56,765 nucleotides of DNA from Pseudomonadota bacterium (GTDB lineage Bacteria; Pseudomonadota; Gammaproteobacteria; Burkholderiales; Chitinibacteraceae), in contig JAPLQI010000117.1 of assembly GCA_026399755.1 (NCBI GenBank), positions 1 to 56,765 of the forward strand. Direction: 5' to 3'. Position numbers and translations under genes: made by a program. The notes beneath the pieces were generated by a model. It saw nothing but the letters and a program-made list of their open reading frames with translations, did no database searches and was not told the DNA's origin. Below, piece after piece: positions 50,612 to 56,765 of the stretch; the stretch's first letter is position 1; each line of letters begins with the position of its first letter.

Positions 50612-50642
50612 GCCTGCAGTAATAAGCTCCTGCAGGTTCTTT
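50612..50642 (+). terminator. Hairpin terminator after pgsA
   Basis: CCTGCAG and CTGCAGG pair with a loop of about ten bases, followed by TTCTTTA. It lies 24 bases past the pgsA stop and before the DAHP-synthase-like gene. The T run is weak. Confidence 0.6.
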
Positions 50643-50668: not shown

Positions 50669-51679
50669 ATGATTATTGTGATGAAGTACGGCGCAAGTGA
50701 AGCGCAGATCGATGCAGTCGTAAATAAAATTCATCAGTCTGGGCTAAAAGAGCATCTTTCGCGTGGCGCAGAGCTGACAATCATCGGCGTAATTGGGGAC
50801 GAAGAAAGGCTGGAGCCTTCCCGTTTTGCGATTTTACCTGGGGTGGATCGAGTTAATCGCGTTGCCAAGCAATACAAGATTGTTTCTCGCAGCACCCACC
50901 CACATGGCACAATGATTAAAGTGCGCGGCATTGAAATGGGTGGCGCGCAAATTCAAATCATTGCTGGGCCTTATGCCGCTGAATCGGCACAGCAAATGGA
51001 TTTAACGGCAGACGCGCTAGCCGCAGCTTCTTGCCGCCTAATGCGTTGTGGCGCTTTCCATGCTGAGCCTTACGCCGCGCCGCGAAAAGAGCGCGAAGCC
51101 TTGGCTTGGCTCAAAGACGCTGCTACGCGTCACCAGTTTCCCGTGGTGGCCGAGTTGCCCGATGTGCGTATGCTCGATGCTTTTATGGAATACGATATTG
51201 AAATGATTCAGATTGGCGAGCGCAATATGCAAAATCTGGATTTACTCAGGGAAGTTGGGCGAATTAACAAACCAATTATTCTAAAGCGCGGCGTATCCGC
51301 AACGATCGCTGAATGGCTAATGGCGGCGGAATCGATTGCGGCTGGCGGCAATCATAATATTATTTTTTGCGAACATGGTATTCGTACTTTTGAAAACGCC
51401 TATCGCAATGTATTAGATATCAGCGCAATTGCTGTATTAAAACAAGAAACGCATTTGCCAGTCATGGTCGACCCAAGCGACGCATGCGGCAAATCATGGA
51501 TGGTGCCCGCTTTGACGCAAGCCGCGATTGCTGCCGGTGCCGATGGGGTGTTGCTGGATGTGCACCCAAATCCTGCTGAAGCACGCTATGCCGCAGATCA
51601 AGCCTTAAGCCCAGCCGCTTTAATGCAATTAATGGCGGGGCTAAAGCCCTTGGCTGCGGCGTTAGGGCGCTCTTTGTGA
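50669..51679 (+). CDS. Degenerate type I-beta DAHP-synthase-like protein, probably non-catalytic
   Basis: A 336-residue protein that aligns end to end with Thermotoga-type DAHP synthase: an N-terminal ferredoxin-like domain (1-75), then the barrel (IQIIAGPYAAES; IQIGERNMQNLDLL; KRGVSATIAEWLMAAE; FCEHGIRTFE; MVDPSDACGK). Metal-ligand positions differ: the Cys of GPCSVES is Tyr102, the His of DPSH is Asp271, the Glu of the EVH motif is Asp297, and the next Asp is Ala308. The KPRTS loop reads HAEPY (131-135), and the Arg of CERGIRTFE is His. Known DAHP synthases need these residues. It is near tyrA. Function is not known. Confidence 0.85.
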   Translation: MIIVMKYGASEAQIDAVVNKIHQSGLKEHLSRGAELTIIGVIGDEERLEPSRFAILPGVDRVNRVAKQYKIVSRSTHPHGTMIKVRGIEMGGAQIQIIAGPYAAESAQQMDLTADALAAASCRLMRCGAFHAEPYAAPRKEREALAWLKDAATRHQFPVVAELPDVRMLDAFMEYDIEMIQIGERNMQNLDLLREVGRINKPIILKRGVSATIAEWLMAAESIAAGGNHNIIFCEHGIRTFENAYRNVLDISAIAVLKQETHLPVMVDPSDACGKSWMVPALTQAAIAAGADGVLLDVHPNPAEARYAADQALSPAALMQLMAGLKPLAAALGRSL

Positions 51680-51703: not shown

Positions 51704-52357
51704 ATGAATATGCTTAAAAAAACGATGCTATTAGCAGTCTTGCTGTCTTTGTCTGTTGTTGTCGAGGCGCGTTCTTTGCTCGATGGTGATTATATTTTAA
51801 GCGAGTGGAGGCATGCAGGTGCCTCGTCTCGTCCGCATGAAAAAGCGCCCACCTTAACGATTCAAGGCGATCGCATGAGTGGCTTCGCTGGATGCAATCG
51901 TTATTCGGGCACAATCAGCACCTTGCCTAAACTGAAAGTGGGCCCGCTTGCTACCACACGCATGGCGTGCTTGGGTGATAAAGCACAGGGCAATGAGTCC
52001 GCCGTGCTGGCTGTGTTTGAAGGCGCAAAGCGCTTTAAATTAAAACAGCCTAATCGTCTGGAATTTAGTGGGGCCAAGGGCGAGCGTTTAACGTTTGTGC
52101 GCCAAGCCGATGCGATCGAGCAAGAGCTCTATATTGCGCCAGAAACAAAGTCATGCACCGGCGTAGCGCCCATGGAATGTATGCAAGTACGTGAAACACC
52201 GTCTGCACAGTGGACTCTTTTTTATAATCAGATCGAAGGCTTCGATTATGTGGCGGGTAAAAACTACAAAATCAAAGTACGGCGCGAGAAAGTAGCCAGC
52301 CCGCCTGCGGATGCGTCCGCATTTAAATATGTATTACTGGAAGTTTTGGGTGACTGA
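51704..52357 (+). CDS. META-domain plus DUF4377 secreted protein
   Basis: A 217-residue protein with a hydrophobic signal peptide (LLAVLLSLSVVVEA). A META/HslJ domain (about 24-130) has the markers MSGFAGCNRYSG and TTRMAC. A DUF4377 domain (about 140-215) has YIAPETKSCTGVAPMECMQV and YNQIEGFDYVAGKNYKIKV. Proteins with META domains are linked to envelope stress and novobiocin resistance in E. coli. No clear lipobox is seen. The stop overlaps the tyrA start by one base (TGATG), so they may be coupled. A second in-frame ATG lies two codons in. Confidence 0.88.
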   Translation: MNMLKKTMLLAVLLSLSVVVEARSLLDGDYILSEWRHAGASSRPHEKAPTLTIQGDRMSGFAGCNRYSGTISTLPKLKVGPLATTRMACLGDKAQGNESAVLAVFEGAKRFKLKQPNRLEFSGAKGERLTFVRQADAIEQELYIAPETKSCTGVAPMECMQVRETPSAQWTLFYNQIEGFDYVAGKNYKIKVRREKVASPPADASAFKYVLLEVLGD

Positions 52358-53232
52358 TGCGCAAGCTTAAAAAGCTAGTTTTGCTTGGAACGGGCCTGAT
52401 TGGAGGCTCGTTTTCTTTGGCGTTAAAGCGGGCAAAGTGTGTCGAGCACGTGGTGGGTGTGGGGCGTAATCCAGACAATTTGGCGCGCGCGCTTGAGCTA
52501 AAAGTGATTGATGAAGCCAGTAATGATGCGGCTTTAGCGGTTCAAGGTGCCGATTTGGTTTTGCTCAGCGCCCCAGTTGGCCAGATGGCAGTGCTTTTGC
52601 AGCAAATTGCGCCGCACCTTCCGCCGCATTGCGTTGTGAGTGATGCGGGCTCTACCAAGCAAGATGTGTGTGCGCTTTATCAGCAATACTTGCCGCAGCA
52701 TTTAAGCTATTGCGTGCCGGGTCACCCCATTGCGGGTTCTGAATTATCAGGCGCTGCCGCTGCACAATATGGCTTGTATGAAGGACGACGGGTAGTGTTG
52801 ACCCCGTTGGCTGAAAGTGCGCCAGAATCGATTGAGCTATTAAAATCTTTGTGGCAAGCCTGCGGTGCGCAGGTGTTTGAAATGAGTGCGGCGGAGCACG
52901 ATGGTGTTTTTTCGGCGGTCAGCCATGTGCCGCACTTATTGGCATTTAGTTATATGAATGCGGTACTCGATCGGCACAATGCAGCGCTTTGTTTTGATTT
53001 TGCGGCGACAGGGTTTCGGGATTTTACGCGTATCGCGGCATCTCACCCTGAAATGTGGCGAGATATCACTTTGGCCAATAAAGATGCCATTTTGCTAGAT
53101 TTAAAAGCCAATGCGGCACAATTATTGGCACTAATAGACTGCATTGAAAACCACGATGCTTTAGGCTTGAACGAGCAGATTGTTCGCGCCAGCACTGCGC
53201 GCAATCAATGGGGGCGCCAGTCTAGGTCGTAA
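52357..53232 (+). CDS. tyrA: Prephenate dehydrogenase
   Basis: Converts prephenate to 4-hydroxyphenylpyruvate on the way to tyrosine. The 291-residue protein has the NAD loop LLGTGLIGGSFSLALKRA, DAGSTKQDV, and PGHPIAGSELSGAAAA, with the substrate His pair. HDGVFSAVSHVPHLLAFSYMNA and the C-terminal helical domain follow. It lacks a fused chorismate mutase. The start overlaps the META gene stop. The DAHP-synthase-like gene lies two genes upstream. Confidence 0.96.
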   Translation: MRKLKKLVLLGTGLIGGSFSLALKRAKCVEHVVGVGRNPDNLARALELKVIDEASNDAALAVQGADLVLLSAPVGQMAVLLQQIAPHLPPHCVVSDAGSTKQDVCALYQQYLPQHLSYCVPGHPIAGSELSGAAAAQYGLYEGRRVVLTPLAESAPESIELLKSLWQACGAQVFEMSAAEHDGVFSAVSHVPHLLAFSYMNAVLDRHNAALCFDFAATGFRDFTRIAASHPEMWRDITLANKDAILLDLKANAAQLLALIDCIENHDALGLNEQIVRASTARNQWGRQSRS

Positions 53233-53300
53233 TTGAGTTGGCTTTTTATTAGATTGTGTTTCGCTCCGCGTATTCTTGCCTCAGCAATAAAGGGATAAAA

Positions 53301-54287
53301 ATGAATTACTCAGCCAATGAAACGCGTTATCAGAATATGCCTTATCGCCGTGTGGGCCGTAGTGGCTTGAAGTTGCCGGCCATTTCTTTGGGCCTGTGGC
53401 ATAACTTTGGTGAAAATCGCGCTTATGAAACCAGCCGAGATATGGTTCTCTCTGCCTTTGATGCGGGCATCACTCATTTTGATTTGGCTAATAATTATGG
53501 GCCACCACCGGGTGCGGCTGAATCTACTTTTGGCCGCATTCTGGCTAAAGATCTCAAGTCTTATCGCGATGAAATCATTGTTTCCAGTAAGGCTGGCTGG
53601 GAAATGTGGCCTGGCCCTTATGGTGAATGGGGTAGTCGTAAATATTTAATGGCAAGCCTTGATCAAAGCTTGCAGCGTATGGGTTTGGATTATGTAGATA
53701 TTTTCTACTCGCACCGCCCTGATCCAGATACCCCGCTTGAAGAAACCATGTCGGCGCTAGATGCGATGGTGCGTCAGGGTAAGGCGCTGTATGTGGGGAT
53801 TTCGTCTTATTCTGCCGAGCAAACAAAGGAAGCAAGCCGCATCTTAAAAGAGCTAGGCACCCCTTGCTTGATTCATCAGCCATCCTTTTCGATGTTTGAT
53901 CGCTGGATTGAAGATGGATTGTGTGATGTATTGGCCGAAGAAGGAATAGGCTCGATTGCTTTTTGCCCTTTGGCACAAGGCCTGCTGACCTCACGTTATT
54001 TAAATGGTGTTCCAGCCGATTCGCGTGCTGCGGCATCTGACAACCCGTTTTTGACCGCTGATAAAGTGGCTGTACGTATTGCTCAGGTCAAAGCTTTAAA
54101 TCATATTGCGCAATCACGTGGGCAAACCTTGGCTCAAATGGCCTTGGCTTGGGCGCTGCTCAAAGTGACATCGGTGATTATCGGGGCCAGTCAGGTCGCG
54201 CAAATTCAGGAAAATATTTTAGCGGTACAAAACTTGGTCTTCGATGCGGCCGAGTTACAAGCAATTGAGTTAATTTTAAAAGGGTAG
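53301..54287 (+). CDS. Aldo/keto reductase (YghZ/GpR-like)
   Basis: A 328-residue NADPH-dependent reductase. The start MNYSANETRYQNMPYRRVGRS resembles the L-glyceraldehyde 3-phosphate reductase group. The catalytic tetrad is Asp and Tyr in HFDLANNYGPPPG, Lys in SSKAGW, and His in YSHRPD. LAQMALAWALLKVTSVIIGAS is the nucleotide-binding end. AAAGGGA precedes the chosen ATG, and the longer reading from 53256 has no homologous pattern. Substrate is not certain. Confidence 0.93.
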   Translation: MNYSANETRYQNMPYRRVGRSGLKLPAISLGLWHNFGENRAYETSRDMVLSAFDAGITHFDLANNYGPPPGAAESTFGRILAKDLKSYRDEIIVSSKAGWEMWPGPYGEWGSRKYLMASLDQSLQRMGLDYVDIFYSHRPDPDTPLEETMSALDAMVRQGKALYVGISSYSAEQTKEASRILKELGTPCLIHQPSFSMFDRWIEDGLCDVLAEEGIGSIAFCPLAQGLLTSRYLNGVPADSRAAASDNPFLTADKVAVRIAQVKALNHIAQSRGQTLAQMALAWALLKVTSVIIGASQVAQIQENILAVQNLVFDAAELQAIELILKG

Positions 54288-55203: not shown

Positions 55204-56765
55204 ATGACTACTGCTACTCTGTCCGGCTCCATGGAAAGCTTTGCCGCTCTATTCGAAGAAAGCCTAACGCGTCAGGAAATGCGCGCCGGTGAAGTGATCA
55301 CTGCTGAAGTGGTTGCTATCGACCATAACTTCGTGACCGTGAATGCTGGCCTGAAGTCCGAGTCGCTCATCCCGCTCGAAGAATTTAAAAACGATAACGG
55401 CGAACTTGACGTTAAAGTTGGCGATTTCGTTCCTGTTGCAATTGATAGTCTCGAAAACGGCTACGGCGAAACTAAACTCTCCCGCGAAAAAGCTAAACGC
55501 TTGGCTGCGTGGATTGAGCTTGAAGACTGCCTCGAAAAAGCCATGGTAATGACCGGTGTTATTTCCGGTAAGGTTAAGGGTGGTCTGACTGTTATGGTTA
55601 ACGGTCTGCGCGCATTCTTGCCAGGTTCTTTGGTTGATATTCGTCCAGTTAAAGACACCACTCCATTCGAAGGCAAGCAAATCGAATTCAAGGTGATCAA
55701 GCTTGACCGTAAGCGTAACAACGTTGTTGTTTCGCGTCGTGCTGTGCTTGAAGAGTCCTTGGGCGAAGAGCGTCAAAAACTCCTTGAAACACTCAAGGAA
55801 GGCGCAATCATCAAGGGTATCGTTAAAAACATCACAGACTACGGCGCGTTCGTTGATCTGGGTGGTATTGACGGTCTGTTGCACATCACTGACTTGGCTT
55901 GGCGTCGTGTGAAGCACCCATCCGAAGTTCTGGCTGTTGGCGATGAAGTTGAAGCTAAGGTTCTGAAGTTCGATCAAGAGAAGAACCGTGTGTCTCTGGG
56001 TCTGAAGCAATTGGGCGAAGATCCTTGGGTTGGTTTGTCACGTCGTTACCCATCGGGTACACGTATGTTCGGTAAGGTTACTAACCTTACAGACTACGGC
56101 GCATTCGTTGAAATCGAACAAGGCATTGAAGGTCTGGTTCACGTTTCAGAAATGGACTGGACTAACAAGAATGTACATCCTTCCAAGGTTGTTCAGCTTG
56201 GCGACGAAGTAGAAGTGATGATCCTGGATATCGACGAAGAAAAACGTCGTATCTCCCTGGGTATGAAGCAATGCATGGCTAATCCGTGGGATGACTTTGC
56301 AGAAAACTTCAAGAAGGGTGACAAGATCAAGGGCGCTATCAAGTCTATTACTGACTTCGGTGTGTTCGTTGGTCTGGCCGGCGGTATCGACGGTCTGGTT
56401 CACTTGTCTGATCTTTCTTGGAACGTGGCTGGCGAAGAAGCTGTTCGCAACTACAAGAAGGGCGATGAAGTTGAAGCGATGGTTCTGTCTATCGACACTG
56501 AAAAAGAACGCATCAGCCTCGGTATCAAGCAAATGGAAGGTGATCCTTTCAACAACTACGTTTCTACTTTCGACAAGGGTTCACTTGTTAAGGGTACTGT
56601 AAAATCTTTGGATGCTAAGGGCGCGATCATTGCTCTGTCCGAAGAAATTGAAGGTTACCTGCGCTCTACAGAAGTTTCACGCGACCGCGTTGAAGACATC
56701 CGTACCGTGCTGAAAGAAGGCGACGAAGTTGAAGCCATGATCATCAACGTTGATCGTAAGAATCG
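55204..56765 (+). CDS. rpsA: 30S ribosomal protein S1 (3' end beyond window)
   Basis: Binds mRNA upstream of the start codon and helps unfold it on the ribosome. About 520 residues are visible from ATG 55204, and the frame is still open at the edge; the family is about 560. OB-fold S1 repeats succeed each other, for example [62 protein letters not shown] and [32 protein letters not shown]. The N-terminus [21 protein letters not shown] binds S2. The complete gene would continue to the right. Confidence 0.98.

Follow-up and report, generated by a model that had tools for sequence, protein, structure and literature searches.

The window, a stretch of 56,765 nucleotides from a 4.95 Mb genome of the family Chitinibacteraceae, encodes a homolog of the type I-beta DAHP synthases that has lost its catalytic residues. 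We give a probability of roughly 0.55 to the reading that this protein is catalytically dead and is kept as a regulatory subunit that binds an aromatic amino acid; we infer both ligand and partner. A regulatory role is the best supported explanation; a new activity and slow decay rank behind it. What was computed is the loss of the catalytic residues, the conservation of this loss in Iodobacter, purifying selection, a reversal of domain rates, the recurrence of similar losses elsewhere and the presence of another DAHP synthase. If we read the sequences correctly, the window protein would have no DAHP synthase activity, would bind tyrosine and would exert a regulatory effect on a partner. "Dead" is used below for proteins predicted in this way to be inactive.

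The window protein has the same full-length fold and FXD-barrel architecture as the type I-beta DAHP synthase of Thermotoga maritima (1rzm, 1vr6, 3pg9; 40–42% identity in structural alignments). Pfam identified a DAHP_snth_FXD domain and a DAHP_synth_1 barrel (163.6 bits), and the protein matched the NCBIfam family PRK08673 with 356 bits (cut-off 335). The full-length barrel and the FXD domain together place it among the type I-beta DAHP synthases by homology. A preliminary description, made from the letters of the DNA, had claimed the full I-beta architecture with an N-terminal ferredoxin-like domain and a clean full-length frame; both Pfam domains indeed match across the full length, and the frame is open from its ATG start. 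KDO8P synthase and other NeuB-like enzymes were rejected as identities, as the NCBIfam equivalogs scored 58.7, 57, and 33.9 bits against cut-offs of 242, 314, and 457.

The AlphaFold model of the protein has a mean pLDDT of 89.6, and values below 50 over at least three residues are found only at residues 132–138, within the former substrate loop. The best PDB matches to the model are the Thermotoga DAHP synthase and a chimera. The barrel superposes on the truncated Thermotoga enzyme 3pg8_B with 1.4 Å over 260 residues, and the whole-chain rmsd to solved structures is 5.8–10.4 Å, which presumably reflects the orientation of the FXD domain in the model. The nearest named relatives are mostly Iodobacter, with an ortholog in I. 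violaceini that is 93% identical. The closest record (96% identical at the gene) is titled Janthinobacterium sp., but is syntenic with Iodobacter and is probably a mislabelled metagenome bin.

Table 1. Features of the DAHP synthase homolog and its surroundings, in window positions.
Feature	Position	Strand	Basis
7-bp perfect inverted repeat CCTGCAG/CTGCAGG followed by TTCTTTAT, between pgsA and the DAHP synthase homolog	50613..50636	+	read by eye
Type I-beta DAHP synthase homolog, predicted catalytically dead, 336 aa	50669..51679	+	open frame, ATG start
FXD (ferredoxin-like) regulatory domain, residues 1–67	50669..50869	+	Pfam PF18152, 83.6 bits; evolves more slowly than the barrel within the dead genera
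Codons 29–31, with His29 and Ser31	50753..50761	+	alignment
Barrel (DAHP_synth_1), relaxed, without catalytic residues	50936..51631	+	Pfam; model superposes on 3pg8_B
Tyr102 at metal-ligand Cys position	50972..50974	+	alignment with 1rzm
HAEPY (residues 131–135) replacing the substrate loop KPRTSPY, with two residues fewer	51059..51073	+	alignment; pLDDT <50 at 132–138
His236 at the Arg position (Arg237 in Thermotoga) of CERGIRTFE	51374..51376	+	alignment
Asp271 at metal-ligand His position	51479..51481	+	alignment with 1rzm
Asp297 at metal-ligand Glu position (conservative)	51557..51559	+	alignment with 1rzm
Ala308 at metal-ligand Asp position	51590..51592	+	alignment with 1rzm
META plus DUF4377 protein, next gene	51704..52357	+	overlaps the start of tyrA by one base
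tyrA, prephenate dehydrogenase (PDH_N, PDH_C)	52357..53232	+	Pfam

In the alignment with 1rzm the metal ligands Cys102, His272, Glu298, and Asp309 correspond to Tyr102, Asp271, Asp297, and Ala308, the very residues that the preliminary description had named. It had also asked whether the ligands might be conserved at shifted positions. This is ruled out, since the flanking motifs IIAGP, VDPS, VHPNP, and ADQ align gap-free and no ligand is found displaced. All four ligands thus differ, as had been claimed, but not to the same degree: the change of Glu298 to Asp is conservative and mild, since 7 of 70 surveyed loci have Asp with the other three ligands intact, whereas the other three changes are drastic. 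The KPRTS loop is lost as well, although by a two-residue deletion plus substitutions and not by five substitutions, and the proposed replacement of the Arg in CERGIRTFE by His is confirmed. Neither the Cys/His/Glu/Asp metal site nor the KPRTS loop of a functional enzyme is therefore present. The window protein nevertheless keeps His29 and Ser31 of the Thermotoga enzyme. It also keeps Arg126, Arg186, and Lys207 (Thermotoga numbering; Arg126, Arg185, and Lys206 in the window protein), which we take to be part of the PEP pocket in DAHP synthase structures; part of this pocket thus seems to survive.

The remaining residues leave little room for DAHP synthesis. The protein might still work with an alternative metal site formed by Asp271, Asp297, and Cys273, or without metal like the non-metal KDO8P synthases, and it is true that Asp297 is a tolerated ligand variant and that two Asp residues are left in the pocket. 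However, the protein also lacks the His, the Asp, the loop's Arg-Thr and the CERG Arg, and Cys273 is replaced by Gly in two loci (L011 and L012). In the non-metal KDO8P synthases, which are a precedent for metal independence, only the Cys is known to be changed. We therefore regard continued DAHP synthase activity as very unlikely.

The loss is shared by a clade, which had been proposed as a check. All nine Iodobacter genomes have Tyr, Asp, Asp, and Ala at the four positions, which rules out a sequencing error, and none has an internal stop. Their substrate loops differ from one another in both sequence and length. The four ligands are intact in 23 genomes from eight other genera of Chitinibacteraceae, read among the 27 family genomes outside Iodobacter and genus g8 (four were left out, including the sole g2 genome); genera of the family in the sample include Chitinibacter (g4), Chitiniphilus, Silvimonas, Jeongeupia, Andreprevotia, and Chitinilyticum. 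In g8 (seven genomes, no internal stops) most ligands are lost in a different way, with H/R/S, H/N/S, D, and F/G/N/Y at the four sites. Two of the seven g8 sequences retain His272, which speaks against the regulatory reading.

For the active-site tally, 151 of 165 fetched loci matched the query at E 1e-20 and gave 127 distinct proteins, or 129 rows with Thermotoga and the query. All four ligands were found in 108 rows (Thermotoga counted). The others were 10 Iodobacter rows (the query twice), seven g8 rows, two rows from the Neisseria-like genus g54 (L159 and L160), one with Asp for Glu (L161) and one ended by a contig edge (L162).

Iodobacter and g8 probably lost the catalytic residues separately. 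Trees of tyrA, cmk, and rpsA together (support 98) and of rpoB (support 100) place g8 as the sister of the intact genus Chitinibacter and not of Iodobacter. The I-beta gene tree instead unites Iodobacter and g8 (support 100 in two trees, 82 for the full protein, 95 for the barrel), as would be expected from a single loss in a common ancestor or from gene transfer between the two genera. Both genera also have Asp for Glu298, and four of the seven g8 sequences share the change of Arg237 to His. Yet a topology constrained to g8 plus Chitinibacter was not rejected for the I-beta gene (p-AU 0.363), so long-branch attraction suffices to explain the grouping and is its simplest reason. The lost sites also differ between the genera, and the loop deletion is found in Iodobacter alone. 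A single loss or a transfer thus appears unlikely.

The two domains have evolved very differently after the loss. Mean p-distances for FXD and barrel were 0.300 and 0.102 between intact proteins (253 pairs), so that FXD normally diverges about three times as much as the barrel. The corresponding values were 0.356 and 0.336 between Iodobacter and intact proteins (207 pairs), 0.054 and 0.107 within Iodobacter (36 pairs), and 0.178 and 0.354 within g8 (21 pairs). The relative rates of the domains are reversed in the dead genera, mainly through a speed-up of the barrel. On a fixed rpoB topology of 18 taxa, the barrel gained 0.496 on the g1 stem and 0.795 on the g8 stem vs. 0.710 over the rest of the tree (both dead genera and the outgroup edge excepted), and FXD gained 0.408 and 0.142 vs. 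2.713.

Purifying selection acts on both domains. The NG86 dN/dS ratios are rough, as only usable pairs were counted and most groups have a mean dS above 1. In Iodobacter FXD had a ratio of 0.029 (35 of 36 pairs usable) and the barrel one of 0.054 (all 36); the g8 values were 0.092 (18 of 21) and 0.194 (12 of 21). Among intact genera, the FXD and barrel values were 0.022 (7 of 10 pairs) and 0.013 (9 of 10) in g4, 0.054 and 0.018 (6 of 6) in g11, and 0.070 and 0.030 (3 of 3) in g10. The barrel of the dead genera is thus relaxed, but not free. FXD has itself changed somewhat: its distance from Iodobacter to intact proteins exceeds that among intact ones (0.356 vs. 0.300), and its dN/dS in g8 (0.092) lies above the intact range of 0.022–0.070, which counts against a regulatory subunit. 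In terms of Pfam bits for FXD and barrel, four dead proteins scored 83.6/163.6 (window), 79.9/153.2 (g8), 79.8/177.2 (g70), and 85.9/37.0 (Neisseria-like), compared to 82.6/235.8 and 78.7/250.4 for two intact ones.

The same trend is seen site by site. FXD has 26 of 70 sites invariant in 18 intact rows and 22 of 70 in 31 dead rows (30 distinct genomes, since one occurs twice as L168 and L182), whereas the invariant barrel sites drop from 175 to 29 of 244. His29 and Ser31, presumably the Tyr-selectivity pair of the Thermotoga enzyme, are both invariant in all 31 dead rows. In the wider survey, the two positions are His/Ser in 17 of 71 rows and Asn/Ser in 35, so not every FXD protein requires this pair. 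An FXD domain with 83.6 bits and this pair is what we would expect of a Tyr/Phe sensor, if the two residues have the presumed role. The conservation of FXD could, however, reflect folding or oligomerization instead of ligand binding. The barrel sites that every dead row retains are concentrated at 184–236 (18 of 53 sites vs. 11 of 191; Fisher p 4.9e-7, for a stretch chosen after inspecting the data), and this region is possibly a contact surface.

The former active site gives a mixed picture. In Iodobacter only 2 of 17 pocket sites vary, compared to 67 of 223 sites in the rest of the barrel (p 0.16); 13 of the 17 have a single residue and two are deleted in all nine genomes. A pocket no more variable than its surroundings leaves room for a function there, which is a point against a regulatory subunit. 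Tyr102, Asp271, and Asp297 might together with the retained Arg126, Arg185, and Lys206 form a pocket remodelled for a phosphorylated or PEP-like substrate, and the low barrel dN/dS of Iodobacter would fit such a new enzyme. On the other hand, the g8 pocket has the same proportion of variable sites (11 of 17) as the remainder of the g8 barrel (146 of 223), and no common new pocket is seen across the dead lineages. The loop varies within Iodobacter and is modelled with pLDDT below 50, and FXD is more constrained than the barrel inside this genus. A new enzymatic activity is therefore improbable in our judgement. The combination of lost residues, open frames and purifying selection across a whole clade is instead that of a retained pseudoenzyme.

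The genomes appear to have another DAHP synthase, as far as family matches can tell. The preliminary description had asked whether they carry a normal enzyme, and a match of 318–338 bits, taken as a type I-alpha DAHP synthase, was found in all 43 family genomes. A similar match (317–335 bits) was found in all seven genomes checked from two other families. The own genome has three DAHP_synth_1 matches: the I-alpha gene, the window gene and a shorter one taken for KDO8P synthase by length and score. No second I-beta copy was found in it, and no type II DAHP synthase was found in the nine Iodobacter genomes. Among the 43 family genomes, the type II family was matched in G021 and G023 only, and an additional I-alpha-like DAHP_synth_1 match was observed in g8 (269–275 bits; G026–G032) and g9 (295–318 bits; G033–G035). 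All six I-alpha proteins read, including that of the own genome, contain the stretch FLSVTK as in the N. meningitidis enzyme, and we assume this stretch to be the effector-selectivity site. According to one study, N. meningitidis has a single DAHP synthase that is most sensitive to Phe, and I-alpha and I-beta enzymes have one common dimeric unit (PMC4735112). A mixed I-alpha/I-beta assembly would therefore be conceivable.

We suggest the following scenario. The ancestor would have been a functional type I-beta DAHP synthase whose N-terminal FXD domain sensed amino acids. As the I-alpha enzyme could make DAHP alone, the I-beta barrel would have been free to lose its ligands and loop. The protein would have been kept for a useful function of FXD on an oligomeric barrel scaffold. 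Most likely an aromatic amino acid, with tyrosine as the probable ligand, is bound there, and the protein relays this signal as a regulatory subunit to a further pathway enzyme. This partner might be the Phe-type I-alpha DAHP synthase, TyrA or PheA. The preliminary description had proposed a selected pseudoenzyme, possibly an allosteric partner in aromatic metabolism. This proposal fits the clade-wide loss, the open frames, the low dN/dS, the retained sensor and the I-alpha enzyme; the partner is hypothetical.

A second survey covered 70 loci: the 30 best FXD matches and 20 others (130 of 369 genomes matched), and 20 additional loci picked non-randomly for a wider range. All four ligands were found in 58 loci and only the Asp for Glu change in seven; one locus was cut short and one was the window itself. 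The remaining three all belong to family f27 and have altered sites: P/Q/N/E in L260, Cys to Ala and Glu to Asp in L270, and Cys to Ala in L273. Of five further f27 loci, L278 and L279 have Cys to Ala and L275–L277 are intact. The f27 sample of eight genomes thus comprises one dead form (g70), four Cys to Ala forms (g85), and three intact forms (g37). In the four Cys to Ala loci the rest of the site is mostly intact, although L273 also has Arg126 changed to Cys, and such forms are possible intermediates toward loss.

Truncated relatives that contain FXD occur in g54 (L166–L168, L174–L185). This genus is probably Neisseria, since G169 has an I-alpha DAHP synthase that most resembles the N. meningitidis enzyme (659 bits). 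A form of ∼300 aa was found in 34 of 46 g54 genomes and the gene is missing in the other 12, which counts against a regulatory role. In the g54 proteins read, the FXD domain is excellent and the barrel is truncated, and the protein of L166 scores 141.8 bits against the NCBIfam DAHP synthase cut-off of 335. The I-beta gene tree places g54 among f27 sequences with weak support (51–55), so the losses in g54 and in the Cys to Ala lineage may not be independent. Counted cautiously, there are two independent losses (the window's family; f27 plus f44), while our preferred count is four.

The genus g54 also bears on the question of decay. A relic made redundant by the I-alpha enzyme and heading to loss, seen before stop codons accumulate, would agree with the several-fold relaxation of the barrel and with the absence of the gene from 12 genomes. 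One stop was also found within the matched stretch in 14 of the 34 g54 matches (one other was ended by a contig edge). However, six of the stop-flagged sequences were translated and simply have a slightly earlier C-terminal end, and the dN/dS values in g54 are 0.068 (84 of 91 pairs) and 0.095 (79 of 91) after a far longer branch. There are no stops in Iodobacter or g8, where dN/dS is far below 1 in both domains at a mean dS above 1, and the FXD scores are undiminished in the four dead proteins scored. We consider decay an unlikely explanation. The loss of catalytic residues in Iodobacter and some related lineages, with near-normal constraint on FXD, suggests instead an old enzyme kept as a regulator.

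Some known systems resemble the window protein in part. HisZ, the regulatory subunit of HisG, is a dead enzyme paralog kept as an allosteric subunit. As a regulatory subunit the window protein would work alike, but the folds are unrelated and a physical partner is proven for HisZ alone. The DAHP synthase-chorismate mutase proteins (3nvt, 5j6f) also combine an I-beta barrel with an N-terminal module of the aromatic pathway. Their barrel is catalytically intact, and the regulatory module is a chorismate mutase and not FXD. Shewanella has a type I-beta pseudogene fused to aroQ-pheA, as described in one report (PMC1173090); there too, an I-beta barrel without function is associated with the aromatic pathway. 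That form is a fusion called a pseudogene, whereas the window form is stand-alone, constrained, equipped with FXD and found in several lineages. No PheA-I-beta fusion was found among seven loci fetched from at least 300 PheA-matching genomes of the class sample; in one of these loci (L309) a separate I-beta gene begins downstream. A literature search, mostly of papers outside subscription, gave no description of the Iodobacter or Neisseria-like dead forms.

More speculatively, the I-beta DAHP synthase may near Neisseria and Iodobacter have repeatedly become a free-standing tyrosine sensor. The role of FXD on other pathway enzymes would then predate the loss, catalysis would have been dropped several times once the I-alpha enzyme was present, and residues 184–236 would dock, possibly on the Phe-type I-alpha enzyme. 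If so, docking would provide joint control by Tyr and Phe, which each protein lacks by itself. Related lineages that drop catalysis and keep the sensor also form a natural replicate, in which an allosteric role would be separable from chemistry, and the truncated version is widespread in the Neisseria-like genus. There is a practical risk too. Both the window protein and the protein of L260 from g70 (394 bits) exceed the PRK08673 cut-off and are therefore expected to be labelled 3-deoxy-7-phosphoheptulonate synthase, which would mislead metabolic models.

The gene neighborhood says less about the partner than the preliminary description had implied by pointing to tyrA. This gene is indeed found downstream, and tyrA, cmk, and rpsA follow in that order in all 19 Chitinibacteraceae loci compared. 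Ten other betaproteobacterial loci compared have pheA on the upstream side and tyrA on the downstream side. As the same order surrounds intact betaproteobacterial genes, the proximity to tyrA is old and inherited from before the catalytic loss, and is weak evidence for a partner. In G114 the dead gene follows pheA (named by eye; it matches PDT-family loci), and in one g54 locus read it lies near an aroE-like gene (by eye) with two frames between. With tyrA here, pheA in G114 and neither in this g54 locus, the partner of a regulatory subunit is a guess. No ACT domain was matched by Pfam in TyrA at E 0.001, and a promoter scan gave nothing above shuffles.

The META gene precedes tyrA in 13 of the 19 loci and is not present in three g8 loci. 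An aldo-keto reductase gene (53256–54287) lies between tyrA and cmk in 16 of the 19; in betaproteobacteria this place is usually taken by aroA, and the own genome has two EPSP_synthase-family genes outside the tyrA-cmk interval. The inverted repeat upstream is possibly the pgsA terminator, and was not in the output of an inverted-repeat scan with a loop limit of 8. Finally, two antisense open frames of 248 and 128 aa over rpsA (55264–56532, minus strand) are most likely shadows of the coding strand.
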